From a virus, in the IMG/VR virus record IMGVR_UViG_3300031951_017642, positions 1 to 50,670 of that record: 50,670 nt of DNA, one strand, 5' to 3'. Position 1 is the first letter of the stretch; every line of letters starts with the position of its first letter. Shown here piece after piece: positions 34,605 through 50,670 of this stretch. A model generated the notes under the pieces. That model worked only from the letters and a program-made list of their open reading frames with translations. It was not told the origin of the DNA and did no database searches. A program made the position numbers and the translations under genes.

Positions 34605-35939
34605 TTAAATTGACCTACTTCCTGTGATATATTTAATTTTACCGAACCAATTAATAGTAGTTGAGGCAACTCCTGTAACTTGTAAAATAATATTACTACC
34701 CGACCCAAGAAGTGTAAATGTTGGTGACCCTATAATGTTTTCTTGAACTGACCCTTGAACTGCCCCAATAAGATTAACAGTTCCTCCGTTATTTAAAAAA
34801 GTTGCACTTATAATTCCACCAATACCAACAGTCCCTGATGTTGTTGCACCAGCAACAAACGCCTCTACCGTATAAACATTATCGTTTGATGTTGCCAAAG
34901 TTATTAATGTTGTTGGAGTTGCGTTAGATGTTTGGACGTACCCACCTAAAGGAATTATGAAGTTTGATCCATTAGATTCATTCCCGTTACCAACATATAA
35001 AGTACCACTACTATCAACACTCATTCGTCTTACACCGCCAGTGGCAACACCGATATTATCGGTACCTATCCTATAAATTCCCGTATTTGGGTCTGAAGTA
35101 AAACTATGTGATGGTGCGGATACTGTTCCGTCACCACTTTGGTATGCGGAAGAAACTTCAAGAATATCAGTACTTGGATTAAAGCTAATACCTGCATTTG
35201 TGTATAAACTTTCTGCTAGCGCAACGGTATTGTTTGAATCAACAAATGTTACATAAAATTTAGTATTTCCTGTGTTTTCTATAGTACTGACTGTAGTTGC
35301 TGAAGTTGGCGATGTACCTGAAGTACCATTAGTTCCATTAGTCCCTGATGTTCCGTTGGTACCTGATGTCCCATTTGTACCTGAAGTACCATTAGTTCCG
35401 TTTGTACCATTAGTTGCAGATGTTCCGTTTGTACCATTAGTACCATTAGTACCTGATGTAAAACCCGGTGGAGTTGTTCCACTTGTACCATTAGTACCTG
35501 ACGTACCGTTAGTTGCCGATGTGCCATGGGTACCTGATGTTCCATTAGTACCATTTGTGCCATTAGTTCCGCTTGTACCATTTGTACCATTTGTACCATT
35601 AGTTCCGCTTGTACCATTTGTACCGTTAGTCCCACTAGTACCATTAGTACCATTTGTACCGTTAGTCCCACTAGTACCATTAGTACCACTTGTGCCATTT
35701 GTACCTGAAGTACCAAAAGTCCCGCTAGTCCCATTAGTACCACTTGTGCCATTTGTACCTGAAGTACCTGCCGAACCACTAGCACCACTTAATATTGGTT
35801 GTAAAAAACTAATTGGGGCAAAATATGAAGAACCTTGTGGGCTCTGACTTGTATCACCTGTAACTACAACGTGAAAAATATCGTTAACTGTGACGGCTGA
35901 AACTTGAGATCTATCTGTGAGTCTATTATAAACTGGCAT
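34605..35939 (-). CDS. Collagen-like tail fibre with Gly-Thr-Ser/Asn repeats
   Basis: This 444-residue fibre has a short N-terminal docking segment (MPVYNRLTDRSQVSAVTVND, about 55 residues). A rod at about 57-225 follows, made of Gly-Thr-Ser and Gly-Thr-Asn triplets with a few breaks (TTPPGF, SATNG, GTH). The C-terminal domain contains FTSDPNTGIYRIGTDNIGVA and GGVRRMSVDSSGTLYVGNG, common in phage tail-fibre ends. Gly every third residue is the collagen rule, yet the rod has almost no Pro. Thr occupies the X position throughout, so stability might depend on Thr glycosylation. Each Asn sits in an N-G-T sequon. The downstream gene is a GT60-like protein glycosyltransferase. Confidence 0.82.
   Translation of the reverse strand: MPVYNRLTDRSQVSAVTVNDIFHVVVTGDTSQSPQGSSYFAPISFLQPILSGASGSAGTSGTNGTSGTNGTSGTFGTSGTNGTSGTNGTSGTNGTNGTNGTSGTNGTNGTSGTNGTNGTNGTSGTNGTNGTNGTSGTHGTSATNGTSGTNGTSGTTPPGFTSGTNGTNGTNGTSATNGTNGTNGTSGTNGTSGTNGTSGTNGTNGTSGTSPTSATTVSTIENTGNTKFYVTFVDSNNTVALAESLYTNAGISFNPSTDILEVSSAYQSGDGTVSAPSHSFTSDPNTGIYRIGTDNIGVATGGVRRMSVDSSGTLYVGNGNESNGSNFIIPLGGYVQTSNATPTTLITLATSNDNVYTVEAFVAGATTSGTVGIGGIISATFLNNGGTVNLIGAVQGSVQENIIGSPTFTLLGSGSNIILQVTGVASTTINWFGKIKYITGSRSI
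35330..35780 (-). repeat. Gly-Thr-Ser/Asn coding repeat (first copy)
   Basis: About 50 nine-base triplet-of-codon units encode GTS or GTN. Synonymous codons are mixed, so the DNA is less uniform than the protein. It encodes the same protein pattern as the much longer tract at 48.3-50.7 kb. Confidence 0.85.
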
Positions 35940-36272: not shown

Positions 36273-37211
36273 CTACACTATTTCCAAAATTTTTTGGTAT
36301 ACCTGTAAAACAGATGGGTGGCACTCAAAAGTTTTTTTTCTTTCTAAACACCCAACTAAAGATGGTATTCCTTGAATTGTCCCCCATTCTCTAACACCAT
36401 ATTTCATATCTGAAGCACAATTTAATCCACAACCACCTCTAACATAGTGGTATTTATAATTCTGAGAACCTTGTCTATAGGGCGATCTGAACTCAGGATC
36501 AATGGAACTTCCCAACTGAATTATGTTAACATCTGTTGTTCCTGCTAAATGTAAAAGACCTGAATCCATAGTTACAAAACAAGAGCTATTGTTAATCAAA
36601 TGCCAAGTTTGATCTAAGGTCGTTTGATTCATTAAGTTGTACCCAAGCTTTATTGGAAAATTAAATACGGGTTTATCAACATTAGAACCTCCCATTTCTG
36701 AAGAATCTTTACCCACAGAAATTACTGAAATACCTTTTTCATTTAAAAGTTGTGTTAACATTTGCCAACTTTTTGCCGGCCAAGTTCTTGAATCCCAATT
36801 TTGAACTGGATGAATTAAAACATATTTTAATGGTAAATCAGGTAAGATGACATTGTCATCAGTGATATAATCCATTTCCATTTCTTTTTTTGTTAACATA
36901 AAACCTAAACTAATGGCATGAAGTTGTCTGATGTCCATTGTATTATGTTTGTTACAAATACCACTTTCCTTATAAAAAACGTCGAAAGTTTGAAACATTT
37001 CATACTCGTCTTTTATTTTATCAAACGTTTCGGGGGAATATTGATAATTATTTTCTACATAAGGTAAATTTGAAAATATTTCTGAATGATGGGAGATTAC
37101 AGAAACTTTTTGATTATATGTTTTACTAATTTTTCTAACTACAGGTGTGGCACATAAAGTATCTCCTAAAGCTCGGCATTGTGTAATATCAATACAAATG
37201 TTTTTCATCAA
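36273..37211 (-). CDS. GT9-like (heptosyltransferase-family) glycosyltransferase
   Basis: The 312-residue protein has the two-domain GT-B features of family 9: N-terminal QCRALGDTLCATPVVRKISK, then the interdomain VLIHPVQNWDSRTWPAKSWQ (from about residue 137), ISVISVGKDSSE, and the C-terminal donor-binding CFVTMDSGLLHLAGTTDVNI. This family includes the LPS heptosyltransferases, which use ADP-heptose. A Cys-rich end (YVRGGCGLNCASDMKYG) recalls the metal-binding Cys of the TibC-type relative encoded at 38.3 kb. Like the other enzymes here it sits between fibre genes. The sugar used is uncertain. Confidence 0.75.
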   Translation of the reverse strand: MMKNICIDITQCRALGDTLCATPVVRKISKTYNQKVSVISHHSEIFSNLPYVENNYQYSPETFDKIKDEYEMFQTFDVFYKESGICNKHNTMDIRQLHAISLGFMLTKKEMEMDYITDDNVILPDLPLKYVLIHPVQNWDSRTWPAKSWQMLTQLLNEKGISVISVGKDSSEMGGSNVDKPVFNFPIKLGYNLMNQTTLDQTWHLINNSSCFVTMDSGLLHLAGTTDVNIIQLGSSIDPEFRSPYRQGSQNYKYHYVRGGCGLNCASDMKYGVREWGTIQGIPSLVGCLERKKTFECHPSVLQVYQKILEIV

Positions 37212-38314: not shown

Positions 38315-41224
38315 ATGGAAAAAATTAAATTATTATATCTTACACCACACCTTTCAACAGGGGGTATGCCACAATTTGTTTTGAAAAGAATTCAGTCCCT
38401 TCAAAAATACAAAAATCAAATTGAAATTTTTTTAGTTGAGTATTCTCAGTTTAGTGACACTTATGTTGTGCAAAGAAATAAAATTATTGATTTATTGGAA
38501 ACTGGTCATTTTTGGACTCTTGGTGGAACAACAGAAAAAGAAAAAAAATATGAATTGATTCGTATTATAAAAGAAAACAAAATAGATATAGTACATGCTG
38601 AAGAAATTCCTGAAGCATTTGAAAGTTTTAATAAAATGCCATTAGATTTATTAAACGAATTATATGATAATAATAGAACTTGGAGAGTAGTAGAAACTTG
38701 TCATAACATTTGGTTTGATCCTAATAATAAAAAATTACATCCTGATTACTATTGTCTTGTAACTCCATACCATAATCAAGTTTCTTTTAAAGACACACCA
38801 TCTAAAAAAGAACTCATAATGTATCCATATGAAAATAAAGTAAAACCAATTTTAGATGAATTAGAAATATATTATGATGATCATAGAGTACCTCTTCTTA
38901 AAAAAATTGAGGTAAGAGATAAAATAGGTTTAGATCATATGAAGACTCATGTTTTAAACGTTGGTCTGTGGACATCGGGTAAAAATCAAAAAGAGGGTGT
39001 TGAAGTTGCAAGATTATTTGAGGAATCTCATCCCAACGTTCATTTTCATTTTATTGGAAACCAAGCACCAAATTTTGAGGATTATTGGGGTCCAATTATG
39101 AATAACTTACCAAGTAATGTGACGGTTTGGGGTGAAAGAGACGATGTCGATGATTTCATGATAGCATCTGATGTTTTAATGTTTAACTCAACTTGGGAAT
39201 GTAATCCATTAGTTATTAGAGAATCTATTAATTATGGATTAAAAATATTGACAAGAAATTTACCTCAGTATGTAGGTATGTTTGACAAATACATTTATCC
39301 TATATCAAGTGACGATTATAATGAAATAAAAAATAACTTAATCGATTTAATAGATAAGGACTCAAATTATACGATTGAATATCAAAATGATTTTGGGGAC
39401 AGCTTATATTATTTTTATAAAAATGTAATGCATACACCTAAACAAAAAAATGAAAAAATTAAAAACGATTACATTGTTAATCAACATTTCGTTATAAATC
39501 CTTTTGTTGAAATTTTAGGTCAGAGTGAAAATCCATTTAATATAAAAATATTTGATGATAATGATAATTTAATTTACGAAAATACTCTACCTATAAACCA
39601 TTGGGTAAAAATTAACACAGAATATTACGTAAAATGGAAAACAGAAATAAGAGAAAATGACGAATTAATTTACACAAATACATTGGATCTGACAAACAAA
39701 AGAGTTTACATTTCTTTCGGGTCAAAATCATTAGGTGATACAATGGCTTGGGTTCCATACTGTGAGGTTTTTAGACAAAAACACAATTGCAAATTAATCG
39801 TTTCAACTTTCATGAACGACTTGTTTATTGACCAATACCCTGAAATTGAGTTTGTTGATCCAGGTAAAGTTGTTGAAAACATATATGCACAATACAGGCT
39901 TGGTTGGTATTATACATCAGAAGGTTTATACGATAAAAATAATCATAAAAATGATTTCAGAAGACAACCACTTCAAAAAACAGCAACAGATATTTTAGGG
40001 TTAGATTATTCTGAAATTAGACCAAAATTAAAACTACCAAAAGTAGAAAAAGTTAAAAAAGTTGGTATTGGGATCCATTCAACAGCACAAGCAAAATATT
40101 GGAATAATCAAAGTGGTTGGCAAGAGGTTGTTGATTATCTTATAGGTTTAGGATATGAGTGTATGGTTTATTCAAAAGAAGGAGACGGATATATGAATAA
40201 TTTTTACCCAAAAGGAGTTACAATATATAAAGGTGGGAACATACAAGAAGTTATAGATGATTTATCAACATGTGAATTTTTTATTGGTTTAGGATCAGGT
40301 TTATCTTGGTTGGCTTGGGCATGTAAACTTCCTGTTATTTTAATTTCAGGTTTTAGTGCAAAGTGGGCAGAAACAACTTTAGATACCTATAGAGTTATAA
40401 ATCAAAATGTTTGTCACGGATGTTTTAATTCAGAAAGATTAGATGCTGGTGATTGGAATTGGTGTCCTCACCATAAAGGAACTGATCGTCAATTTGAATG
40501 TACAAAACAAATTACTTCTGAAATGGTTATTTCAGAAATTAATAAAATCACAAATAAGGAAATAACTCAAGAAATTAATTTTGATTGGGGTGGAAGAAGT
40601 GAATGGTATGTAAAACAAGCTGAGGAAGAAATATTTGAAGGTAATACTTATGAAAGATTTTTTGAGGTTGAGGAGGGTGACATTGTTGTAGATTTAGGTG
40701 CATCTTTAGGTCCATTTACTTATAAAATATTACCGAAAAAACCAAAACAATGTTATGTTGTCGAACCATTAAGTCACCAAATCAAAATTTTAAAAAACAA
40801 TGTAGGTCAAGAAAATGTAAAAATTATTCAGGGAGCAATAACTGATAAAAAGAAAATTGAAATCACTTGGGATAATATGACAGAAAACGTCCCGACATTT
40901 AGTTTCAAAGAATTTTTAGATGAATATAAAATTGATAAAATTGATTTTTTGAAGTGTGATTGTGAAGGTGGGGAATACGATGTTTTTCAAGAAAGTAACA
41001 TTGAATTTTTAAAATCAATTCCAAAAATTGTAACAGAGTTTCATCTCAGAAACGACTCAAATTACCACGAATGTAAGTTTAGATGGTTTAGAGATAATAT
41101 TTTATCCCAATTCAATAATATTCAAGTTTATTCAGTCGATGGTCTTGATATTAAATGGAATCTATGGAATGACGAATTCATAGAATATTATAATGAAGTG
41201 ATAATATATATGGACAATAGGTAA
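38315..41224 (+). CDS. GT4-like / TibC-type O-heptosyltransferase / FkbM methyltransferase fusion
   Basis: A 969-residue fusion of three modules. Residues 1-385: GT4-like GT-B (LLYLTPHLSTGGMPQFVLKR; LNVGLWTSGKNQKEGVEVAR; LMFNSTWECNPLVIRES). Residues 390-755: the bacterial autotransporter heptosyltransferase (BAHT/TibC) family, with the small beta domain (NPFVEILGQSENPFNIKIFD; NHWVKINTEYYVKWK), GSKSLGDTMAWVPYCEVFRQ, LQKTATDILGLDYSEIRPKL and the four-Cys metal finger CHGC-x13-C-x11-C (about 699-727; DWNWCPHHK, RQFECTK). Residues 760-969: FkbM methyltransferase (VVDLGASLGPFTY; IDFLKCDCEGGEYDVF). TibC enzymes put heptose on Ser of autotransporter repeats. A single chain could thus attach, extend and O-methylate a glycan. 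It is the only plus-strand gene in the 27-50 kb block. Confidence 0.85.
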   Translation: MEKIKLLYLTPHLSTGGMPQFVLKRIQSLQKYKNQIEIFLVEYSQFSDTYVVQRNKIIDLLETGHFWTLGGTTEKEKKYELIRIIKENKIDIVHAEEIPEAFESFNKMPLDLLNELYDNNRTWRVVETCHNIWFDPNNKKLHPDYYCLVTPYHNQVSFKDTPSKKELIMYPYENKVKPILDELEIYYDDHRVPLLKKIEVRDKIGLDHMKTHVLNVGLWTSGKNQKEGVEVARLFEESHPNVHFHFIGNQAPNFEDYWGPIMNNLPSNVTVWGERDDVDDFMIASDVLMFNSTWECNPLVIRESINYGLKILTRNLPQYVGMFDKYIYPISSDDYNEIKNNLIDLIDKDSNYTIEYQNDFGDSLYYFYKNVMHTPKQKNEKIKNDYIVNQHFVINPFVEILGQSENPFNIKIFDDNDNLIYENTLPINHWVKINTEYYVKWKTEIRENDELIYTNTLDLTNKRVYISFGSKSLGDTMAWVPYCEVFRQKHNCKLIVSTFMNDLFIDQYPEIEFVDPGKVVENIYAQYRLGWYYTSEGLYDKNNHKNDFRRQPLQKTATDILGLDYSEIRPKLKLPKVEKVKKVGIGIHSTAQAKYWNNQSGWQEVVDYLIGLGYECMVYSKEGDGYMNNFYPKGVTIYKGGNIQEVIDDLSTCEFFIGLGSGLSWLAWACKLPVILISGFSAKWAETTLDTYRVINQNVCHGCFNSERLDAGDWNWCPHHKGTDRQFECTKQITSEMVISEINKITNKEITQEINFDWGGRSEWYVKQAEEEIFEGNTYERFFEVEEGDIVVDLGASLGPFTYKILPKKPKQCYVVEPLSHQIKILKNNVGQENVKIIQGAITDKKKIEITWDNMTENVPTFSFKEFLDEYKIDKIDFLKCDCEGGEYDVFQESNIEFLKSIPKIVTEFHLRNDSNYHECKFRWFRDNILSQFNNIQVYSVDGLDIKWNLWNDEFIEYYNEVIIYMDNR

Positions 41225-41240
41225 TTACTTTTTACCTATT
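41216..41240. terminator. Bidirectional hairpin across abutting stop codons
   Basis: AATAGGTAA (41216-41224) and TTACCTATT (41232-41240) form a perfect 9-bp inverted repeat around TTACTTT. The stop of the plus gene ends at 41224 and that of the minus gene begins at 41225, so the hairpin lies exactly at the collision point. It is AT-rich, with a T run in the loop and no long T tail. Confidence 0.5.
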
Positions 41241-41668
41241 CTTACAAATTTATACCAAATTCTTTCGTGAAAAAAATACATAACAGGTTTTATCATAAGT
41301 TCACCAACACCTAATAAAGATGATAACTCTAAAGAAACTCCTAATGAATATGCGGTCACAATTGTTGTAAAAGTACCTAAAAAACGATAGGATATTGTTT
41401 TTAATATGTGTCTGAGCATGGCAGCATCTTCTTTCACGGTTACAACATAAGCAACATTATTAGTTATTGTCACATAACCTTCACAACTGACATGCCATTT
41501 ATATTGATTAATATCCTCCATCCAGTCCATAGAAGTATATGTATGACCATCAATAATAATATCTTTTACCAATTTTTCATCACCATCTGTAATTAATCTC
41601 CATCGATCAATTTCAGATGTACTGTTAACATTGAATCTGATTTGGAATTTTTTTATTTTTTCTTTCAT
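41225..41668 (-). CDS. DUF2061 membrane protein
   Basis: 147 residues. The last 60 residues (LKTISYRFLGTFTTIVTAYS, LGVSLELSSLLGVGELMIKP, VMYFFHERIWYKF) match the DUF2061 family, with two hydrophobic helices and the signature K-x-x-YRxxGT ... E-x-x-K-x-x-xYxxHERxW. In Bacteroidota and other Gram-negatives I associate this family with sulfate-activation genes (cysC/cysD/cysN). The N-terminal part (EIDRWRLITDGDEKLVKDII) is a separate soluble domain I do not recognise. It overlaps the nucleotidyltransferase gene by 4 bases, which supports a shared sulfation role. Confidence 0.75.
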   Translation of the reverse strand: MKEKIKKFQIRFNVNSTSEIDRWRLITDGDEKLVKDIIIDGHTYTSMDWMEDINQYKWHVSCEGYVTITNNVAYVVTVKEDAAMLRHILKTISYRFLGTFTTIVTAYSLGVSLELSSLLGVGELMIKPVMYFFHERIWYKFVRIGKK

Positions 41669-42063
41669 ATCTTACCTTCTTTCTTCATTTGTTCTCTTAC
41701 TTTAGTCGCAGAAATGTCGTGAATATTTTGTGGTGGTACATGCTCAATTACGTCGTATCCAACACCTCTACCGTAGTTAATTGATTCTATATCGGGAATA
41801 ATAATTACCTTAACACGCTCTTCAGTGATTAAGTTACCATAGTGGTCCTCAATATTCTTTTTAACCTCATCAGGAGTAAAAGGATTTTTATCGTCAGGTT
41901 TTACATCTCTAATACAAATCAAAACGTTTTTACCTTCCTCTAACGCTTGATTAAATAACCATTGATGACCTTCATGCAATGGTTGCCATCTCCCAACAAA
42001 CATTGAGTATTGTCTGTCTGTTGATGAGGTTTTCTTATCTGCTTTTGCTATGTAGTTTTTCAT
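41665..42063 (-). CDS. HxGH nucleotidyltransferase
   Basis: 132 residues with FVGRWQPLHEGHQWLFNQAL (HxGH at about 30-33) and the late ISATKVREQM, the two nucleotide-binding motifs of the cytidylyl/adenylyltransferase superfamily (NadM, CTP:glycerol-phosphate, phosphopantetheine enzymes; ATP sulfurylase is a distant member). It overlaps the APS kinase gene by 29 bases and precedes DUF2061. Given these neighbours, it may activate sulfate or a sugar precursor. Motifs alone read closest to archaeal-type NMN adenylyltransferase, so its reaction is open. Confidence 0.7.
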   Translation of the reverse strand: MKNYIAKADKKTSSTDRQYSMFVGRWQPLHEGHQWLFNQALEEGKNVLICIRDVKPDDKNPFTPDEVKKNIEDHYGNLITEERVKVIIIPDIESINYGRGVGYDVIEHVPPQNIHDISATKVREQMKKEGKI

Positions 42064-42487
42064 ATCCTAAAATTTGATTAACACAAGTTTCAATTATTAC
42101 ATCTGAAGTATCCATGTCTAAAAAGTTTTCTAATGGTTCTTCGTAGTTCTTAACGTGAAAGTCTTCACGTCCTCTTAAATTTTCGGTATGAACATATATC
42201 TCGATAATGTCATTACCCAACTTTGATTTAAATTCTTCTCTCTGATCTCTGTAAGGAGAAACTAAACTTACAATAACATCATTACCTTTGTTATGTAGAA
42301 AATGTGTAATGTGTTGAGCAAGTTCAATATTCTTTCTTCTTCCCAATTCACTATAATCTTTGTTATTAAAGATTTCTCTTAGATCATCACCATCAACGTG
42401 AAAGGTGTTATTTGGTAGTTTTGTAATTAGTACTTCAGCAATTGAGGTCTTACCCGCACCAGGTTGACCTGTAAACCAATAAATCAT
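42035..42487 (-). CDS. cysC: Adenylylsulfate (APS) kinase
   Basis: A 150-residue P-loop kinase. It has FTGQPGAGKTSIAEVL (Walker A, about 7-15), VDGDDLREIF (31-40), the LGRRKNIELAQHI helix and VSLVSPYRDQREEFKSKLG, the ordered motifs of APS kinase. Typical CysC is about 200 residues, so this is slightly trimmed at the lid and C-terminus. The enzyme phosphorylates adenosine 5'-phosphosulfate to PAPS, the universal sulfuryl donor for sulfotransferases. A sulfotransferase is encoded in the same strand block at 44.2-45.0 kb. It lies 2 bases after a GT9-like gene and overlaps the nucleotidyltransferase. Confidence 0.82.
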   Translation of the reverse strand: MIYWFTGQPGAGKTSIAEVLITKLPNNTFHVDGDDLREIFNNKDYSELGRRKNIELAQHITHFLHNKGNDVIVSLVSPYRDQREEFKSKLGNDIIEIYVHTENLRGREDFHVKNYEEPLENFLDMDTSDVIIETCVNQILGYEKLHSKSR

Positions 42488-42489
42488 AT

Positions 42490-43368
42490 TTATATTTTTT
42501 CTAAAAGTTTATCAACATCAAACATTTCGTTTATTGAATAATAAGGACATTCAAAGGCCAAACCTTCAAATGAATAATCAAACAGATATGAATTTGGATG
42601 TTTAATATTACCCGTAGGTGGGTTAGCAACTATATTATTATGAATTGTATAACCAAATACTTTTGGTGAAGTACCAATCCATAAAACAGACGATTCTAAA
42701 TTAAAAGCCGCAGCAACATGTTGTAAACAAGAATCAATAAGAATTCTTTTACTACTATAAGTTAGTAATGTGAATAAATCTATATTTGACATTTCTTGAT
42801 CAATCACTTCAGCTTCAGGAATTTTTCTTGAGGATGGTTTACAAACTTGTATGATATGGTACTCCTCTTTATATTTTTCTACAATTTGTAGGGATAGATC
42901 AAAAGGTATGTCTCTTGTCCAAGAATAAGGTAGATCAGATGTAATTAGACCACCATTGGTTTGAATGAGTAATATAGGTTTTTCTCGTCTCCACTTTAAA
43001 CCAATTCTTTCTTGAACTAAATTAAATTGTATATCTGGAGTTTGATTTTCGTAATCTAAATTTAATAATTCACACCAATTTTCTATTAAATGTTTTCTTT
43101 TATGAAAATGATTTGTTTGATAATATGGTTCATGTCTAAACACTATAGTGTCTTTATCTTTTATAAAATCATCATAAAAGTATTGAGTATTACCTACTCT
43201 ATAAACTCTGTAGATATTTGGGTTATTAATAAAAATGTCAGGATAAGAAGCAACAACAATTATTTTTCTATCGACATATTTTTCTTTAATGGATTTTAGT
43301 AAAGATGTTGCAGCAACGTTTTTTCCTAAACCACCCTCAATATGCCAAACAATATATTTTTCTTCCAT
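42490..43368 (-). CDS. GT9-like glycosyltransferase
   Basis: The 292-residue protein starts YIVWHIEGGLGKNVAATSLL, like the GxGDxxxxTPxLxxL opening of GT9 enzymes but with GGLGK in place of GDxL. The interdomain part reads PILLIQTNGGLITSDLPYSW, and the donor half has YSSKRILIDSCLQHVAAAFN then LESSVLWIGTSPKVFGYTI, as in family 9 (xxDS-x-x-x-H-x-A). It is placed 2 bases before APS kinase, so the sugar it adds may be the one that is later sulfated. It is diverged from the GT9-like protein at 36.3 kb, so the two probably use different substrates. Confidence 0.65.
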   Translation of the reverse strand: MEEKYIVWHIEGGLGKNVAATSLLKSIKEKYVDRKIIVVASYPDIFINNPNIYRVYRVGNTQYFYDDFIKDKDTIVFRHEPYYQTNHFHKRKHLIENWCELLNLDYENQTPDIQFNLVQERIGLKWRREKPILLIQTNGGLITSDLPYSWTRDIPFDLSLQIVEKYKEEYHIIQVCKPSSRKIPEAEVIDQEMSNIDLFTLLTYSSKRILIDSCLQHVAAAFNLESSVLWIGTSPKVFGYTIHNNIVANPPTGNIKHPNSYLFDYSFEGLAFECPYYSINEMFDVDKLLEKI

Positions 43369-43425
43369 ATTTTTTATAAAAAAATAAGAAAAATAAATTT
43401 TAAATAAATCTTTTAGTAAGATATA

Positions 43426-43920
43426 TTAGAACTTGTCAATACATTGCTGACAAAATTCAAAGTACGTTACTATTGACGGACTTTTATAAATTGGTGGTGT
43501 TTTTTTTGGTGTAGATGTTACTTGACCACAACCTCGATATCCTTTGGCGTCTAAACCATATGTGTCACCAATTTTTAAATTTGGGTATTCGGGAGAAAAA
43601 TTGACCCCAAATTCAAACCCTAACTTACAATCTTGGAAAAAAACAACGTATGGTGAAACTCCTCCTCCACCGTTATTAGGATTGTTTTCTATGAAAGTTG
43701 TAGCCTCAGAAATTTTATTTTCAATCAATGTAAGTTCAGTCTCACTAAAACCACCTTTATCTTTTTCAATCATTAAATGTTTTTTATTAAATTCAATAAT
43801 CTCATTTATATTTGGTGGATCTAAATTTCCTGAAGGCGTGCTTGTATTCTCAATCAATTTATTGATCATTGTAATTGAGTCTAATGCAACCTTTACCCTA
43901 TCAAAAGAATTATCCGCCAT
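43426..43920 (-). CDS. Small unknown protein, paralogue 1
   Basis: 164 residues. The first 85 (FDRVKVALDSITMINKLIEN, IIEFNKKHLMIEKDKGGFSE, ENKISEATTFIENN) are helical and homologous to the 86-residue protein at 43910-44170. A Gly-rich hinge (NNGGGGVS) leads to a second part with YVVFFQDCKLGFEFGVNFSP, DAKGYRGCGQVTSTP and four Cys. I do not recognise either family. The adjacent, overlapping paralogue looks like the helical half alone, suggesting duplication of a coiled adaptor with a tip domain added or lost. Position beside sulfation and fibre genes suggests a virion or fibre-associated role. Confidence 0.6.
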   Translation of the reverse strand: MADNSFDRVKVALDSITMINKLIENTSTPSGNLDPPNINEIIEFNKKHLMIEKDKGGFSETELTLIENKISEATTFIENNPNNGGGGVSPYVVFFQDCKLGFEFGVNFSPEYPNLKIGDTYGLDAKGYRGCGQVTSTPKKTPPIYKSPSIVTYFEFCQQCIDKF

Positions 43921-44170
43921 TAGAGTCTAAGAAATTTTGAGCATTTACAATACAGGTTTGTATTTGATTGCCTTCGTCATTTATTAAAGCTTCTGTAAAC
44001 CAACTTTTACCCATCATAATTTCTAAATGGTCTTTGTTGCGTTTCACAATGTCTATTTTTTCATCTATAGTTTTTCCTGTAGATGGTATTGTGTTATTGA
44101 TTAAGTTTACCGAATCAAAGGCTGCCGATACAGAATTTCTTGGGTTTGGTGGTGTGTCTTGTGTTTCCAT
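43910..44170 (-). CDS. Small helical protein, paralogue 2
   Basis: 86 residues: VSAAFDSVNLINNTIPSTGK, IDIVKRNKDHLEIMMGKSWF, QIQTCIVNAQNFLDSNGG. It aligns with the N-terminal half of the next gene: F-D-x-V/S..A-x-DS-x-x-x-IN, then NKxHLxIMxxK, then I-x-xA-x-xFI/L. It overlaps that gene by 11 bases and is likely co-translated. No known domain is recognised; the pattern suggests a two- or three-helix oligomerising unit. Confidence 0.6.
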   Translation of the reverse strand: METQDTPPNPRNSVSAAFDSVNLINNTIPSTGKTIDEKIDIVKRNKDHLEIMMGKSWFTEALINDEGNQIQTCIVNAQNFLDSNGG

Positions 44171-44172
44171 AA

Positions 44173-44991
44173 TTATAAATAGTTAAATCTTTTATAAAAC
44201 CAATCATAGTGAGATCTAATTCTATCTGATTGTTCTTTACTTAAAACTTCAATAAAGTCTTCTTTATATGGCTCAATATTTGGTTTAATTGTATGGTCGC
44301 CAAAAATTCCATGAATTACATCATTCTCGTGTGTTAGTTGTTCCATGTTTGTAAAGTGGTGAGGATAATAATCAAATCCTAAATAGTTATATAGTTTTTT
44401 CATTTCTTTTTCAGGATTTACAGTCAAATCTTCAAAACGTATAAAATGAATTTTTTTATCATATCCTTGGTGTATTGCTTCAAATAACCATTCAATTGAC
44501 GGACCAACAGGTGGAGTTGTTGAGAAGTGATCAATTCTTGCAACTGTTGTCATATTTTTCAATTCAACTCCATTGACAATCATAGGATCTTTGTGTTGAT
44601 TTTTTCTAAAGTTTTTTTCCATTGATGAAAAAATAGAACGTAAGTCTCTAACCATACAAACCATTTTGATATCTTCTTCAAAAAACTCCAAAAATCCATA
44701 ATTACCGATCCAAGCCCTACTTTTTTCAAAAACATACGGTCTATTTGTAATTGCATTATAAAACCCATACAAACCTTGTTTATAGAAATTTTTCATTCCA
44801 TTTTTCATTTCCTCAGGATCTTGAGCTCTAAATGCGTCTCCTGTTGAATAAACACTCCTTGCAGTCATCAATAAATCAGCAAGGCCAGAAGTTGGTGTTG
44901 AATAAAATTCAGGATTTTGCATCAAAATGTTTTGAAGTAATGTAGACCCTGCTCTTGGGAGTGATGTGTTATAAAATATTTTTTGTACCAT
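44173..44991 (-). CDS. Sulfotransferase
   Basis: 272 residues with the PAPS-binding signatures of the sulfotransferase superfamily: IFYNTSLPRAGSTLLQNIL (5'-phosphosulfate loop, about 5-23) and KMVCMVRDLRSIFSSM (3'-phosphate segment, about 109-124), followed by HFIRFEDLTVNPEKEMKKLY, the usual R-x-EDL-x-x-P near the end of the fold. These enzymes transfer sulfate from PAPS to sugars, proteins or lipids. There is no signal peptide or membrane anchor, so it would act in the host cytoplasm. APS kinase, the PAPS source, lies 1.7 kb downstream on the same strand, and the giant fibre gene ends 46 bases upstream. Virion glycans are the most economical substrate, by inference. Confidence 0.8.
   Translation of the reverse strand: MVQKIFYNTSLPRAGSTLLQNILMQNPEFYSTPTSGLADLLMTARSVYSTGDAFRAQDPEEMKNGMKNFYKQGLYGFYNAITNRPYVFEKSRAWIGNYGFLEFFEEDIKMVCMVRDLRSIFSSMEKNFRKNQHKDPMIVNGVELKNMTTVARIDHFSTTPPVGPSIEWLFEAIHQGYDKKIHFIRFEDLTVNPEKEMKKLYNYLGFDYYPHHFTNMEQLTHENDVIHGIFGDHTIKPNIEPYKEDFIEVLSKEQSDRIRSHYDWFYKRFNYL
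44175..44181 (-). promoter_or_regulatory. TATTTAT motif before helical paralogue 2
   Basis: Coding strand TAACTATTTATAATT, 4 bases before the ATG at 44170. It overlaps the end of the sulfotransferase gene. Confidence 0.4.
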
Positions 44992-45037: not shown

Positions 45038-48000
45038 TTAACAAGATAACATTATTTTTCTCAACACTCCATTGATATAAACAGGCCAAATATCACTAAC
45101 CGTACATCCAATACCTGAACTAACAACCCCCAAATTGAATCCTCCTACTGCAGAACCAAAGTGTATATAATTACTAGCTTGTATGTCTGTATAACCACCT
45201 ATCGCAACTGAAGCGGTGTAGTTACCAGTCGGCATACCAGTTCTGTAACCCAAAAATATATTATTATCACCTTGATAAGTTGTTGCACAGTTTGCTTCTC
45301 TACCTATGGCAATATTATTCTTAGATGTTGTTGGTTGATTATAAGATGCACATCTACCGATTGCAATATTATCATAACCTGTAGTTAATTTAGACCCCGC
45401 CCAAGCACCTACACCAATACTATATCTAGTTGTGGTTGCATAATACATGGCTCGCGAACCAACACTTACGTTTCTTTGACCTGTAGTTAAATTTCTTTGA
45501 GATCTTTCCCCTATTGCAACGTTTACACCACCCGAAGTATTACCATATAATGTTTCAGTACCAATAGCAACGTTTTCTGAAGTTGCAACACTTGAGAATA
45601 AAGCTTGAAATCCTATTGCAACATTAGCATTAGTACAATAACAAGAATGATTACAACCTGCTTTAGTACCTATAAACACATTAAAACACGACTGATAACC
45701 ATTATAATTTGCTCTATAACCTAAAACAACATTACAAGATCCTGATTTGTTATATGCCATTGTTCGAATACCAATTGAAACGTTTCCTACACCAGTTGTA
45801 TTTTCATATAGTGCAGTTCTACCCATTGCAATGTTGTAATTTCCTGTTGAGTTACAGATAAGTGCGTTTCTACCTAAAGCGATGTTTTGAGTACCTGTAG
45901 TGTTTGAGAATAAAGGTTTTCTACCGATAGCAATGTTTTCATTTGCGGTTGTATTATTTTCAAGTACACATCTACCAATTGCAACGTTAAAACATCCATA
46001 CGTGTTATTATACATGGCTCTATATCCTTGAGCAATATTAAATTGACCGTATGTATTATTTAGTAAACTACAAGTACCTATTGCAATGTTTTGATATCCT
46101 GTGTTATTGTTATATAGAGATTGATAACCAATTCCAATATTATTATGACCATAAGTATTATTTTCTATTGAACGAGAACCTAAACCAGTATTTTTAAAAC
46201 CAGTCAAATTTTTTGCTAATGCTCTATATCCCATAGCAACATTATGAAAACCTGCTATGTTGGACTCTAATGTTTTACTTCCTAAGGAACTATTTGCATA
46301 TGCAGTTCCTCCATTATTTTGAGTATTGTAACCCACTCCAGTATTGTCATTTCCAGTATTATATATTAATGCGAAATGACCAACTGCGGTATTTCTAATA
46401 CCAGTTGAATTTGATTGTAAAGCTCTCGTACCTACTGCAGTATTATTATAACCTGTTGTTTGGGTACATAAGGCTAAAAAACCTACCGCTACGGATGGAT
46501 TGTAAGCTGTTGTATTTCTAAGTGCATTTGCACCAATAGCAACATTTTGCCGTCCAGTTTTATTTAAAGTTAATGTGTTACTACCTATACCTATATTGTA
46601 ATGTCCTGTAGAGTTATATCTTTGAGAACAACCGCCAATTGCAATGTTTCCATATCCACATTGTTTATACGTATAGTTACACCCCCTTAGGGCGAACAGA
46701 CCAATAGCAATATTTGCAGGTCCAGGTAAATTGAAAGGGGCTCTATATCTCATAGCTTCCGAACCAATTGCAATTTCGTGACTTAGTGTATTACTACAAT
46801 ATAAACTAAAGTGACCTATTGCAATATTATAACAACCCCCAACATTTGAAAATAATGCTCTGTACCCAATTGAAAGGTTTCGTGATCCAGTTGTATTGGC
46901 AAGTGAAGCGGACGCACCTATGGAGATATTCTGATAACCTGTCGTATTATTATCTAAATTAGATATTCCTATTCCAATATTTTGACAACCCGTTGTATTT
47001 TGAAATAATACTCCCGATCCAATAGAAACATTATTATTACCAGTTGTATTATTATATGATGCTCGTCTACCAATTGCTATATTACAACATCCTGTTGTTA
47101 CGCATTTTAAAGATCGATACCCTATCGCAACGTTGTCATATTTAGCCCCAAATGCGTATAGAGTTTCTCTACCAATTCCAATATTATTACTGCCTGTTGT
47201 AGAGAAACGTAATGCGTCTCGTCCAAACGAAACATTATCACACCCTGTTGTATTATAACGTAAGGATTGACAACCAATTGCTATGTTATGAAGACCCGAC
47301 GTATTATTTCTTAAAGCATATTGACCAATTGCGGTATTAAAGTTACCTGTATTGTTATTTAACAATGAATACCTACCAATTGCCGTATTATGACAACCTA
47401 ATGTGTTATTACGTAATGAAGATAATCCTATCGCGTTATTATAGGTTCCCTGTGTGTTAGATTGTAAAGAGTATCTACCAATTGCGGTATTATTACCCCC
47501 ATTTATGTTTGAAGACATAGATCGATACCCAACTGCTAAATTACCACTACCAATTGTATTATTAAATAAAGTACCATCACCAATTGCGACGTTATTGACA
47601 CCACTAACATTGCTTCGTAAAGCATTACGCCCAAATGCATTATTTTGTGAACCTGTAGTGTTACTTCTCAATGCGTATTGACCCATTGCATTATTTTGTG
47701 AACCTGTAGTATTACTACGTAATGAACAAAATCCAAATGCCGTGTTGTGACAACCAGTTGTGTTACAATATAATGATAATCGACCAATACCAATATTACA
47801 ACTTCCCGTTGTATTACAATTTAATACTCTACTACCAATCGCAAAGTTGTAATTTCCTGTTGTTGTATATCTCAAAGCGTAGCTACCAATACCAACATTA
47901 TTACTTCCCGAGGTATTTGAAGATAAAGTAGATTGTCCCCCTATTGCGACGTTTTCTGCACCATTCGAGTTCAACAGTAAAGACCTATATCCAATACCAA

Positions 48001-50670
48001 TATTTCTATTTCCTGAAGTATTCGTGTAAAGGCTGTTCGGTCCAATACCAACATTCCTACATCCTGTAGTATTACATTTTAAAGAAAATCCACCAATTGC
48101 AATGTTTAATGGTCCCGTTGCGGTATTAGCAAATGCAACCGTACATCCAATTGAAATGTTAGTTGCAACATTGTTATTCCCTCTACCTACCTTTACTGAA
48201 TTAATATTCAAGTAAGGTGATGTGATTGTACCATCAAAAGTTAAAAGTGATTCAGCAACTATGCCGCCCGCACCATCTGAAGTTAGTACTTCATTATTAG
48301 CTCCAGGTACTGTAGGAGAAACCCCACTTGTACCATTGGTTCCATTAGTTCCTGATGTTCCGTTGGTTCCACTTGTACCATTAGTTCCTGATGTTCCGTT
48401 TGTTCCACTTGAACCGTTTGTTCCATTTGTACCGCTCGATCCATTTGTTCCGTTAGTACCACTAGTTCCGTTGGTACCACTTGAACCATTTGTTCCATTA
48501 GTACCGGATGTTCCGTTAGTTCCTGAAGTTCCGTTGGTACCGCTTGAACCATTTGTCCCGTTAGTACCTGAAGATCCATTAGTCCCATTTGTACCGCTAG
48601 TTCCATTTGTTCCCGAACTACCGTTTGTTCCGTTTGTACCTGAAGTTCCATTAGTTCCTGACGTTCCATTTGTACCTGAAGACCCGTTAGTACCATTTGT
48701 CCCACTAGTTCCGTTAGTACCCGATGTTCCGTTGGTTCCTGAAGTACCGTTTGTTCCGTTGGTTCCTGAAGTTCCATTTGTTCCTGAAGAGCCATTAGTC
48801 CCATTTGTACCGCTAGTTCCATTTGTTCCCGAACTACCGTTTGTTCCGTTTGTACCTGAAGTTCCATTAGTTCCTGACGTTCCATTTGTACCTGAAGATC
48901 CATTAGTTCCGTTAGTACCTGATGTTCCATTTGTACCTGAAGATCCATTAGTTCCGTTAGTACCTGATGTTCCATTTGTACCTGAAGATCCATTAGTTCC
49001 GTTAGTACCGCTAGTACCATTAGTTCCCGAAGATCCATTCGTACCATTAGTTCCTGAAGTACCATTCGTACCGCTAGAACCATTAGTTCCCGATGTTCCG
49101 TTGGTTCCACTTGTACCGTTTGTTCCGTTTGTACCACTTGACCCATTTGTACCGTTGGTTCCATTTGTTCCCGAAGTCCCATTAGTACCTGACGTTCCGT
49201 TTGTACCACTTGACCCATTTGTACCGTTAGTCCCTGACGTTCCATTTGTACCTGATGTTCCATTAGTCCCGTTGGTTCCTGAAGTTCCGTTTGTTCCGCT
49301 AGTACCATTCGTTCCTGATGTTCCGTTAGTACCGCTAGTACCATTAGTTCCCGAAGATCCATTAGTTCCTGATGTTCCATTAGTACCACTTGTACCATTT
49401 GTTCCATTAGTTCCTGAAGTTCCATTGGTCCCGCTAGTTCCGTTGGTACCACTCGAACCATTTGTTCCGTTTGTACCTGAAGAACCATTTGTTCCACTAG
49501 TTCCATTTGTTCCGTTTGTTCCACTAGTACCGTTGGTTCCTGAAGTACCATTTGTTCCGCTAGTTCCGTTGGTTCCATTAGTACCAGATGTACCATTAGT
49601 ACCTGAAGATCCATTAGTTCCGTTAGTTCCTGAAGTACCATTAGTACCGCTTGAACCATTTGTTCCGCTAGTACCATTAGTTCCGTTAGTTCCTGAAGTA
49701 CCATTAGTACCGCTTGAACCATTTGTTCCGCTAGTACCGTTGGTACCATTCGTACCATTTGTTCCGCTAGTTCCGTTGGTACCACTTGAACCATTTGTAC
49801 CATTTGTTCCTGATGTTCCATTGGTCCCGCTCGTACCATTTGTCCCATTAGTACCGCTAGTTCCATTAGTACCGCTAGTTCCATTTGTTCCACTTGTACC
49901 GTTCGTACCATTAGTTCCGCTAGTTCCATTGGTTCCCGATGTTCCATTAGTCCCGCTCGTACCATTTGTCCCATTAGTACCGCTAGTTCCATTAGTACCG
50001 CTAGTACCATTGGTACCGCTTGTACCGTTCGTACCATTAGTTCCGCTAGTTCCATTGGTTCCCGATGTTCCATTAGTACCATTCGTTCCTGAGGTTCCAT
50101 TTGTTCCATTAGTACCGCTAGTTCCATTAGTACCGCTAGTACCATTGGTACCGCTTGTACCGTTCGTACCATTAGTTCCGCTAGTTCCATTGGTTCCCGA
50201 TGTTCCATTAGTACCATTCGTTCCTGAGGTTCCATTTGTTCCACTAGTACCGTTTGTTCCATTTGTACCGCTAGTACCATTGGTACCGCTTGAACCATTT
50301 GTCCCATTCGTACCTGAAGTTCCGTTTGTACCACTAGTTCCGTTAGTACCTGATGTTCCGTTTGTACCATTAGTTCCGTTAGTACCCGATGTTCCATTTG
50401 TTCCATTCGTACCTGAGGTCCCGTTTGTACCATTTGTTCCGCTAGTTCCATTAGTTCCTGATGTTCCATTAGTACCATTTGTTCCGCTAGTTCCATTAGT
50501 CCCGTTGGTTCCTGAAGTTCCGTTTGTTCCATTAGTCCCCGAAGTCCCGTTTGTACCATTTGTTCCGCTAGTTCCATTAGTTCCTGATGTTCCATTAGTA
50601 CCATTTGTTCCGCTAGTTCCATTAGTCCCGTTGGTTCCTGAAGTTCCGTTTGTTCCATTAGTCCCCGAAG
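45038..50670 (-). CDS. Giant collagen-like and NxAIG-repeat fibre/adhesin, N-terminus beyond window
   Basis: At least 1877 residues in one frame from the right edge to the stop at 45038; the true start lies outside. The visible N-terminal 780 residues are an almost pure Gly-Thr-Ser/Gly-Thr-Asn rod of about 260 triplets. A linker (SPTVPGANNEVLTSDGAGG; FDGTITSPYLNINSVKVGRG) joins it to about 57 repeats of 17 residues with the core N-x-A/G-IG-x-x-x-L-x-x-N-T-x-G. These resemble YadA/TMF-type adhesin heads, which wind as beta-rolls. Many repeats carry Cys. The end (SDIWPVYINGVLRKIMLSC) may be the tip. A TTG codon at 48209-48211 is not the start, because the frame is open and meaningful upstream. 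It is probably a long side or tail fibre for host binding. Confidence 0.8.
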   Translation of the reverse strand, partial: SGTNGTNGTSGTNGTNGTSGTNGTNGTSGTNGTSGTNGTNGTSGTNGTNGTSGTNGTNGTSGTNGTNGTSGTNGTSGTNGTNGTSGTNGTNGTSGTNGTNGTNGTSGTNGTSGTNGTSGTNGTNGSSGTNGTSGTNGTNGTSGTNGTSGTNGTNGTSGTNGTSGTNGTNGTSGTNGTSGTNGTSGTNGTNGTSGTNGTNGTSGTNGTSGTNGTNGTSGTNGTSGTNGTSGTNGTNGTSGTNGTSGTNGTSGTNGTNGTSGTNGTSGTNGTSGTNGTNGTSGTNGTSGTNGTNGSSGTNGTSGTNGTNGTNGTSGTNGSSGTNGTSGTNGTNGTSGTNGSSGTNGTSGTNGTNGSSGTNGTSGTNGTNGTSGTNGTSGTNGTSGTNGTNGTSGTNGSSGTNGTNGSSGTNGTSGTNGTSGTNGTNGTSGTNGTSGTNGSSGTNGTSGTNGTSGTNGTSGTNGTSGTNGTNGTSGTNGTSGTNGTNGSSGTNGTSGTNGTSGTNGTNGTNGSSGTNGTNGTSGTNGTSGTNGSSGTNGTSGTNGTNGSSGTNGTSGTNGTNGSSGTNGTSGTNGTNGSSGTNGTSGTNGTNGSSGTNGTSGTNGTSGTNGTNGSSGTNGTSGTNGTNGSSGTNGTSGTNGTNGTSGTNGTSGTNGTSGTNGTNGSSGTNGTSGTNGTSGTNGTNGSSGTNGTSGTNGTNGSSGTNGTNGSSGTNGTSGTNGTSGTNGTNGSSGTNGTSGTNGTNGSSGTNGTNGSSGTNGTSGTNGTSGTNGTSGTNGTNGTSGVSPTVPGANNEVLTSDGAGGIVAESLLTFDGTITSPYLNINSVKVGRGNNNVATNISIGCTVAFANTATGPLNIAIGGFSLKCNTTGCRNVGIGPNSLYTNTSGNRNIGIGYRSLLLNSNGAENVAIGGQSTLSSNTSGSNNVGIGSYALRYTTTGNYNFAIGSRVLNCNTTGSCNIGIGRLSLYCNTTGCHNTAFGFCSLRSNTTGSQNNAMGQYALRSNTTGSQNNAFGRNALRSNVSGVNNVAIGDGTLFNNTIGSGNLAVGYRSMSSNINGGNNTAIGRYSLQSNTQGTYNNAIGLSSLRNNTLGCHNTAIGRYSLLNNNTGNFNTAIGQYALRNNTSGLHNIAIGCQSLRYNTTGCDNVSFGRDALRFSTTGSNNIGIGRETLYAFGAKYDNVAIGYRSLKCVTTGCCNIAIGRRASYNNTTGNNNVSIGSGVLFQNTTGCQNIGIGISNLDNNTTGYQNISIGASASLANTTGSRNLSIGYRALFSNVGGCYNIAIGHFSLYCSNTLSHEIAIGSEAMRYRAPFNLPGPANIAIGLFALRGCNYTYKQCGYGNIAIGGCSQRYNSTGHYNIGIGSNTLTLNKTGRQNVAIGANALRNTTAYNPSVAVGFLALCTQTTGYNNTAVGTRALQSNSTGIRNTAVGHFALIYNTGNDNTGVGYNTQNNGGTAYANSSLGSKTLESNIAGFHNVAMGYRALAKNLTGFKNTGLGSRSIENNTYGHNNIGIGYQSLYNNNTGYQNIAIGTCSLLNNTYGQFNIAQGYRAMYNNTYGCFNVAIGRCVLENNTTANENIAIGRKPLFSNTTGTQNIALGRNALICNSTGNYNIAMGRTALYENTTGVGNVSIGIRTMAYNKSGSCNVVLGYRANYNGYQSCFNVFIGTKAGCNHSCYCTNANVAIGFQALFSSVATSENVAIGTETLYGNTSGGVNVAIGERSQRNLTTGQRNVSVGSRAMYYATTTRYSIGVGAWAGSKLTTGYDNIAIGRCASYNQPTTSKNNIAIGREANCATTYQGDNNIFLGYRTGMPTGNYTASVAIGGYTDIQASNYIHFGSAVGGFNLGVVSSGIGCTVSDIWPVYINGVLRKIMLSC
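45200..48190 (-). repeat. 51-bp coding repeats (17-residue NxAIG units)
   Basis: Roughly 57 diverged tandem units such as NTAIGRYSLLNNNTGNF and NIAIGCQSLRYNTTGCD. Period is 17 residues with occasional 18 or longer units, for example around the YKQCGYGN interruption. Confidence 0.85.
48576..48898 (-). repeat. 107-bp direct repeat pair
   Basis: Copies at 48576-48682 and 48792-48898, 216 bases apart, are identical by eye. This shows recent duplication within the collagen-like tract. Confidence 0.75.
48878..49009 (-). repeat. 45-bp tandem repeat, about 2.9 copies
   Basis: Copies begin at 48878, 48923 and 48968 with one mismatch at the first base of the first copy. Each encodes 15 residues. Confidence 0.8.
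49971..50240 (-). repeat. 135-bp tandem duplication
   Basis: 49971-50105 matches 50106-50240 base for base by eye, encoding 45 residues per copy. Confidence 0.8.
50418..50669 (-). repeat. 126-bp tandem duplication at window edge
   Basis: 50418-50543 is identical to 50544-50669 by eye, encoding 42 residues per copy. More copies may follow outside the window. Confidence 0.8.

Follow-up and report, generated by a model that had tools for sequence, protein, structure and literature searches.

The window analysed here, a 50,670-base virus record (IMG/VR IMGVR_UViG_3300031951_017642), carries a T4-type contractile-tail gene set and, on its minus strand from 50670 to 41225, a run of genes arranged nearly head to tail. 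The run begins with a long fibre gene and includes genes for a sulfotransferase (ST), a kinase of the adenosine 5′-phosphosulfate (APS) kinase family (APSK) and an HxGH nucleotidyltransferase (NT), as follows.

45038..50670, minus strand: long fibre-type protein, open reading frame truncated at the end of the window, leading gene of the run
44173..44991, minus strand: ST, 272 residues; Pfam Sulfotransfer_3 (E 6.4e-16) and Sulfotransfer_1 (E 9.2e-11), phrog_27463 (E 2.9e-36)
43910..44170, minus strand: hypB, small protein of 86 residues, no Pfam or PHROG match
43426..43920, minus strand: hypA, small protein of 164 residues, no Pfam or PHROG match
42490..43368, minus strand: GTx, glycosyltransferase (GT)-like protein of 292 residues, no Pfam match; phrog_8954 (E 4.2e-6), a PHROG of unknown function
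42035..42487, minus strand: APSK, 150 residues; Pfam APS_kinase (E 3.1e-17), solved APS kinases (E 1.7e-11)
41665..42063, minus strand: NT, 132 residues; CTP_transf_like (E 2.9e-6), over the cut-off
41225..41668, minus strand: DUF2061 membrane protein; Pfam DUF2061 (E 1.6e-13)

We consider it likely that this cassette encodes a self-contained sulfation pathway, in which NT, of NadM lineage, would serve as the ATP sulfurylase and the fibre or its glycan would receive the sulfo group. The genes that the initial annotation had named were found on the minus strand as listed, with ST, APSK and the DUF2061 protein exceeding their Pfam cut-offs: 59.7 bits against 27 for PF13469, 63.5 against 21.1 for PF01583 and 51.3 against 23.1 for PF09834, respectively. 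NT overlaps APSK by 29 bp and the DUF2061 gene by 4 bp, and the window DUF2061 protein has an N-terminal extension of about 85 residues. NT proteins identical to that of the window occur in five IMG/VR records, four of which carry the whole cassette with identical DNA. For GTx the earlier label 'GT9-like' was not established, as no Pfam family matched and its profile aligned with the window's true GT9 protein over 47 columns only, at 29% probability, a weak N-terminal likeness.

Conservation of the cassette and its kinase

Scanning IMG/VR with NT and APSK confirmed 185 NT and 366 APSK loci, and the best 80 of each were examined. Among the best 80 NT loci, APSK was present in 78, DUF2061 in 67 and ST in 36; the best 80 APSK loci carried NT in 79 cases, DUF2061 in 72 and ST in 38. 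The two sets share records, and 103 representatives were left after removal of repeats. The spacing is tight: of 100 measured APSK–NT pairs, 84 are at most 60 bp apart and 69 overlap; among the representatives, spacing this close is seen in 74 of 86 measured pairs of NT and DUF2061 (71 overlapping) and in 19 of 46 pairs of ST and APSK. Because relatives of NT and APSK are numerous in IMG/VR and the genes stay together in both sets of 80, the cassette is no chance array. GTx often accompanies the cassette and ST: of the 164 loci fetched, counting repeats, 75 carry a relative of it, 31 one of hypB and 11 one of hypA. DUF2061 had no relative in the 'phages' collection. The sequence motifs quoted in the initial annotation are widely kept: at least 90% of 101 APSKs have G-Q-P, G-K-T and D-G-D with the R after it, and at least 95% of 46 STs have SxPRxGSTL and MxRDxR.

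An AlphaFold2 model of APSK (pLDDT 92.7) bore out the earlier assignment to the APS kinases at the level of the fold. It superimposed on the Archaeoglobus fulgidus enzyme with AMP-PNP and APS (7yq1) with a VIA Z of 21.7 and an rmsd of 1.7 over 148 of 150 residues, and all of its matches at ranks 1-30 were APS kinases or APS kinase domains of bifunctional enzymes (Z 21.7 to 17.1); the first other fold was gluconate kinase at Z 16.0. Residues G7, G12, K13, D32, D34, R37, Y45, R50, N53, P78 and R83 do not vary among 21 aligned sequences and fall in the P-loop, DGDxxR, aromatic-S..xR..N and SPxR-type stretches; we take them to have the same APS-site roles as in APS kinases. Two features argue for caution: the window kinase scored 67 bits against a cut-off of 138.7 for the apsK equivalog (TIGR00455), and by eye it is without most of the usual lid (RDPKGLYKKARxGEIxxFTG), being about 14 residues shorter. 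Among the kinases that partner NT in cells, those of haloarchaea and one of Flavobacteriales do reach the apsK cut-off. By sequence and model the window kinase is an APS-kinase-family protein, which, owing to the shorter lid and the missed equivalog score, is not proven to be CysC. Its phosphorylation of APS to 3′-phosphoadenosine 5′-phosphosulfate (PAPS), the putative second step of the pathway, is strongly supported by sequence and model.

A HAD gene related to PNKP phosphatases was found in 15 of the 103 representatives (for example L024:7649-7996). It lies directly between APSK and NT in ten and is fused to APSK once, in locus L043 (L043:2356-3114). Five of 132 neighbour proteins matched HAD_PNKP at E 0.001, the one shown in full being under the cut-off. 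Together with a match to the polynucleotide kinase family phrog_505 (E 1e-5), these genes could be taken to indicate nucleic-acid end repair by a kinase, a PNKP-like phosphatase and a nucleotidyltransferase. PNKP-type repair was judged weak, however, and we give it the smallest credence of the alternatives considered: the kinase has the fold and APS-site residues of APS kinases, the unit is without a ligase, the HAD gene is absent from most loci, and a 3′-phosphatase would equally suit removal of 3′-phosphoadenosine 5′-phosphate (PAP). Within the APSK–NT unit the PNKP-like HAD protein is a possible PAP 3′-phosphatase, and our guess is that in those phages it would remove this by-product of sulfotransfer.

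The nucleotidyltransferase and its cellular relatives

Both by sequence and by Foldseek (E 7.7e-4) the closest solved relative of NT is NadM. With NadM and archaeal NMN adenylyltransferase (2qjo, 1ej2) NT shares the GRxQPxHxGH core, an NPFT stretch and a C-terminal xSxTxIR. In contrast to NadM, the NT family has neither RNSxWVSH nor YSNNPLV, presumably nicotinamide-side elements, and instead has invariant arginines of its own (R52 in IRD and R99 in GRxVGY of the window protein). The two families form separate clades (SH-like approximate likelihood ratio support 100; 28 NT and 7 NadM rows), and NT falls below the NadM equivalogs PRK01153 (35.1 against 127 bits) and TIGR01527 (27.4 against 181.2 bits). 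In the structural check outlined in the initial annotation, NadM is nearest by Foldseek; the ordinary ATP sulfurylase Sat (1v47) reached only a VIA Z of 6.6, below PPAT (8.7) and NMNAT (7.1), values so low that they show the superfamily only. The NT model (pLDDT 73.4) cannot place sulfate because the key loop is too weakly modelled.

A pattern scan of a species-genome collection, which was not exhaustive, yielded 77 cellular NT loci. Of these, 69 have APSK either fused to NT or no more than 1.8 kb away, and in 25 the two share a single reading frame. Fusions were read in both orders, APSK–NT in four haloarchaeal loci (L217, L222, L224 and L226) and NT–APSK in one Woesearchaeota and one OCS116 fusion (L233 and L234). 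APSK is fused to DUF2061, with NT adjoining, in five of the 77 (Chitinophagaceae/Bacteroidia); because of these fusions our guess is that DUF2061 would hold the PAPS-making enzymes at the membrane. Two loci with the phage-type order APSK–NT–DUF2061 (L165 and L193) may be phage DNA.

The expectation that NT stands in for Sat or CysDN beside APS kinase held in haloarchaea, for which 145 genomes were drawn from the class that includes Natrialba asiatica (apsK counted from at most 21 candidates scored per genome; threshold E 1e-12 for apsK and CysD). The NT profile scored 141-148 bits in five genomes and no higher than 52 bits in the remaining 140. These weaker matches, and the second matches in the five, were NadM-like, and all seven that were read carried the NadM motifs. 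Eight of the 145 genomes had apsK: in five it shares one frame with NT, and in the three others, as in no other genome of the sample, Sat lies beside it. All eight thus hold Sat or NT but never both (three Sat plus five NT), the remaining genomes hold neither, and CysD was detected in none of the 145 at E 1e-12. A function of NT in NAD synthesis was considered and rejected, since a separate NadM-like match is present in all 145 genomes, including the five with NT, and the motifs differ.

Across 50 NT-bearing genomes taken from the 77 loci, APS kinase was found in 49 and Sat in three. CysD exceeded the cut-off in one, two more had strong split matches, and weak matches (E 1e-6 to 1e-8) occurred in 12 haloarchaea.

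Upstream of the fusion, all 12 haloarchaeal loci carry the same gene family, with nothing listed between in eight and another frame in four. The one representative scanned matched Sulfotransfer_3 (E 2.4e-8, whole protein), and a profile of this family found it in four of four further loci. An inositol-phosphatase gene is present in ten cellular loci and a Sulfotransfer_1 family in eight, mostly in Flavobacteriales; the best match of the one inositol-phosphatase representative scanned was CysQ, at 223.4 bits against a cut-off of 228.8. A sulfotransferase-like gene follows NT in four loci of the Chitinophagaceae group (26.9 bits against a cut-off of 27, one representative). In Nitrospirales (L187-L189) the order is sulfite reductase/TusA, CysH and NT (one representative per family; NT at L188:7893-8429), which ties NT to inorganic sulfate.

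Two other kinds of neighbour were recorded at cellular loci, each from a single representative. A YqcI/YcgG-family gene follows the APSK–NT fusion in 8 of the 12 haloarchaeal loci (L217, L220, L221, L222, L224, L225, L229 and L231). Genes for S-adenosylmethionine synthetase and S-adenosylhomocysteine hydrolase lie beside APSK–NT in marine group III archaea and marine Bacteroidota (L184, L185, L194, L203, L204, L207, L209, L212 and L214).

The fusions in both orders, the haloarchaeal exchange of Sat and NT, the CysH/sulfite reductase and CysQ-like neighbours and the upstream sulfotransferase make it most likely, on this comparative evidence, that NT represents a third, NadM-lineage kind of ATP sulfurylase and that PAPS is what the cassette produces. 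The suggestion in the initial annotation that NT might replace ATP sulfurylase thereby gains strong support from gene context. As the first step of the pathway, NT, a shortened offshoot of the NadM/NMN adenylyltransferases, would adenylylate inorganic sulfate with ATP to give APS, and we propose R52 and R99 as sulfate-binding residues.

Several observations weigh against this assignment. NT is under the cut-off of the Pfam ATP-sulfurylase family (PF01747; 18.5 against 24.3 bits, E 0.0014), the position of QxRN, which we take to be the motif of Sat-type enzymes, reads GRWQ, and the model is poor at the key motif (residues 94-111, pLDDT below 50). Eight of the 77 cellular loci show no APSK, although one of these, L241, probably encodes an ordinary NadM. 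In 6 of the 50 NT-bearing genomes NT occurs together with Sat or a strong CysD match, and the absences in the 50 genomes are weak evidence because many of them are metagenome-assembled or single-amplified genomes. Moreover, the two Nitrospirales genomes searched (those of L188 and L189) also hold a Sat–APS kinase fusion elsewhere, which disfavours simple replacement by NT there.

During synthesis of the O-methyl phosphoramidate capsule of Campylobacter, the substrate of a CysC relative is a donor linked to CDP. By analogy, NT might activate another molecule and APSK phosphorylate the product, with no sulfation involved. The short lid and low apsK score of the phage kinase would suit such a function, as would its score of 63.4 bits with PRK05541, presumably a capsule-type kinase group, against 67.0 for apsK; in addition, the substrate of NT is predicted from sequence context. 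Nevertheless, we regard this reading as improbable. Genes of ST families stand beside the cassette in phages, haloarchaea and Flavobacteriales, as does the one just under the cut-off in the Chitinophagaceae group; canonical APS kinases with a full lid pair with NT in Flavobacteriales and haloarchaea; and neither the Sat/NT exchange of haloarchaea nor the CysH and sulfite reductase context would be expected of it.

Assimilatory sulfate reduction, with the kinase as an auxiliary metabolic gene, is the published reading of phage cysC and is stated for freshwater and hadal phages (PMC10914622, PMC9529941). That NT follows CysH in Nitrospirales would agree with it. In the phages themselves, however, the family of CysH and CysD (PF01507) was over the cut-off in none of 50 cassette records, many of them fragments, and under it in one; the same search detected the family in 14 of 14 control genomes. 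Assimilatory reduction is thus not supported for the cassette phages, and we attach very little probability to it.

Sulfotransferase, fibre and acceptor

Besides its Pfam matches, the window ST has both PAPS motifs (LPRAGSTLLQ and VRDLRSIFSSM); phmmer detected no solved relative at E 0.01. Relatives are carried by 46 of the 103 phage representatives. In the third step, ST would take the sulfo group of PAPS and pass it to an acceptor, a role strongly supported by its family. The families, fusions and neighbourhoods described above likewise give strong support to the claim of the initial annotation that the cassette joins production of PAPS with a sulfotransferase.

The ST gene starts 46 bp after the end of the long fibre gene, on the same strand. 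The predicted fibre protein consists of a collagen-like GTNGTSG shaft followed by NTTG..NIAIG beta-roll repeats. The part of this gene in L007, whose DNA is that of the window, matched Pfam Collagen at E 2.8e-81, and no Pfam family matched the tail part of the fibre at 45038-48211. The association was examined in loci with at least 2.5 kb upstream, a fibre being defined as a member of one fibre-type BLAST cluster and distance being taken from ST or, failing that, from APSK; fibre proteins of ST-less loci were classed by BLAST clusters only. Of 38 ST-bearing loci, 34 have a fibre-cluster gene no more than 4 kb away, as against 0 of 36 ST-less loci. One of the loci counted as ST-less (L068) may be a missed ST-bearing case, since APSK there has a gene of the fibre cluster at about 5 kb and the record gave a Sulfotransfer_3 match below the cut-off. 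The association persists where the locus is rearranged (L050, L061 and L066). Of four cluster members scanned, one matched Collagen (L007), one YadA_head, UspA1 and Mtd_N (L016), and two nothing (including L136).

On a tree ST changes at least eight times. Among 50 records of sister phages, chosen by DNA polymerase, three carry ST, all with NT, and none of the 44 NT-less records does; two of the three look closely related. NT was strong in four of the sister records, one of them at a contig end (G244), and weak in two. Of 11 loci found through ST, eight carry APSK and NT, five of these being from records with the window's own cassette; the remaining three are one cut at ST, one short contig and L251.

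From these neighbourhoods the fibre is favoured as the sulfate acceptor. As the fourth step, sulfate would be placed on the collagen/YadA-like fibre encoded directly upstream or on a glycan added to it by the neighbouring transferases. The proposal of the initial annotation that fibre glycans are sulfated, and its expectation that the same cassette would be found beside fibres in other phages, are upheld as far as gene neighbourhood goes, by the 34 of 38 ST-bearing loci; the acceptor itself and glycosylation of the fibre are not established.

Set against this, the stretch fetched around 57 of the 103 phage cassettes contains no relative of the window ST. In the records of 50 such cassettes, many of them fragments, Sulfotransfer_3 was over the cut-off once and under it twice, so their PAPS would go to a divergent ST, to an unrecognised enzyme or elsewhere. 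No other ST was found among ten cluster representatives of the cassette neighbours (two from ST-bearing loci), which comprised a DNA methylase, an epimerase, a GT2, a GT10-like protein under the cut-off, baseplate, sheath and DUF932 proteins and three without a match; for the 132 neighbour proteins the 25 commonest of 122 Pfam families were read, so that rare STs could be hidden. Furthermore, the tree test of fibre against ST has only six independent pairs (on average 5.3 the same way, 0 opposite, median p 0.0625). Two sister phages with weak NT matches (G211 and G212) have no ST, and in G244 NT stands where the contig ends. No cassette was found within 6 kb at L251, which carries ST together with the GT-like gene. 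Finally, ST was without an APSK or NT match nearby in 7 of 7 marine and Synechococcus phage loci.

Alternatively, PAPS is made but its sulfate ends up on glycans of the host surface or on a small molecule instead of the fibre, perhaps as a means of excluding other phages. Cellular relatives of the cassette often lie near polysaccharide genes (epimerases, UDP-sugar dehydrogenase, and flippase plus ST), the window holds several glycosyltransferase genes, some ST-less cassettes adjoin a GT2 gene or the GT10-like gene under the cut-off, and the ST of Synechococcus phage S-SRM01 adjoins glycosyltransferase and epimerase genes. This is the most serious of the alternatives, and we still think it unlikely in view of the presence of a fibre gene near ST in 34 of 38 loci against 0 of 36 without ST, also after rearrangement, and of the 46 bp that separate the two genes in the window.

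Neighbouring genes, known systems and implications

The T4-type set of the window includes, by Pfam, a tail sheath, a family B DNA polymerase, two collagen-like fibre genes and several glycosyltransferases, with a tail tube gp19-like match under the cut-off. Next to the cassette lie the following genes.

38315..41224, plus strand: multi-domain glycan enzyme, 969-residue single frame; Pfam GT4-like, GT9-like (under the cut-off) and FkbM methyltransferase
36273..37211, minus strand: GT9 glycosyltransferase; Pfam Glyco_transf_9 (E 1.4e-15)
34605..35939, minus strand: second collagen-like fibre protein; Pfam Collagen (E 3.9e-20)
33312..34556, minus strand: GlcNAc-type glycosyltransferase; Pfam GlcNAc (PF11397, E 1.2e-70)

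The glycan enzyme at 38315..41224 is a neighbour on the opposite strand, outside the conserved unit. The GlcNAc-type gene sits 48 bp past the second collagen-like gene. PF11397 is, we assume, the Skp1-modifying type of glycosyltransferase; the location of this gene so soon after one for a collagen-like fibre could be a hint that the fibre protein is glycosylated.

In known sulfate-activating systems, Sat or CysDN acts with CysC, PAPS synthetase fusions included. As in the cassette, the sulfate-activating enzyme is encoded beside or fused to APS kinase, and CysQ-like, sulfotransferase or CysH neighbours are common to these systems and to cellular relatives of the cassette. The difference lies in the candidate first enzyme, in the phage a 132-residue protein of NadM lineage that is neither Sat nor CysD.

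Phage cysC (K00860) has been reported as an auxiliary metabolic gene, and these are probably the same kinases as APSK. In one account, 62 cysC genes of freshwater phages are filed under assimilatory sulfate reduction and are transcribed more than non-phage cysC in some samples (PMC10914622). In another, viral CysC is likewise filed there and described as distinct from cellular CysC, with 109-135 residues modelled (PMC9529941). The word 'sulfotransferase' appears in the main text of neither, nor does 'nucleotidyltransferase' in that of PMC10914622. A study of two OM43 phage genomes reports Sulfotransfer_3 with a function that 'remains unclear' (PMC10580990). STs homologous to that of the window (26-30% identity over 92-99%) occur in the Synechococcus phages S-SRM01, S-SCSM1 and S-SKS1; unlike in the cassette, neither APSK nor NT gave a profile match in the adjoining 6 kb or as far as the record extends, and these phages presumably use host PAPS. 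Phage sulfotransferases, in Synechococcus and OM43 phages, and phage cysC (PMC10914622, PMC9529941) are thus not new. No description of a virion sulfation pathway, of this NT or of a third ATP sulfurylase was found in the literature searched, which included PMC13079714, PMC12713726 and PMC11641403 and lay outside preprints and most subscription papers.

Stenotrophomonas phage DLP_6 (L002:7590-8321) and Clavibacter phage 33 (L003:5584-6321), both isolated phages, encode a fused, strongly diverged APSK-like/NT protein. These resemble the cassette in joining both domains, here in one protein, a make-up also seen in PHROG 10255. They differ in that the kinase is more diverged and that no ST or DUF2061 profile match was found in the two loci scanned.

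The new point would be NT as an ATP sulfurylase, a proposed new enzyme family; synthesis of PAPS and sulfation are themselves known. Were NT such an enzyme, a basic reaction of sulfur metabolism would have a third solution that annotation has missed: in nine plasmid records with the haloarchaeal fusion, eight annotate it only as 'adenylyl-sulfate kinase' and one leaves it unannotated. Production of PAPS in organisms with APS kinase and without Sat or CysDN would be explained, and phage 'cysC sulfur-cycling genes' of this type could become sulfation genes. The broadest form of the proposal, that tailed phages build their own sulfated fibres by a complete pathway from sulfate to sulfoconjugate, opening with a third, NadM-derived ATP sulfurylase that they have in common with haloarchaea, marine Bacteroidota, Marinimicrobia and DPANN archaea, we put forward tentatively, with its chances slightly short of even. 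Virion sulfation becomes testable, and negative charge on the fibres could alter receptor binding, stability or recognition.

Elsewhere in the window, at 20488-22683, a 731-residue protein contains an Fe/Mn superoxide dismutase, with both of its Pfam domains, embedded at residues 165-353.

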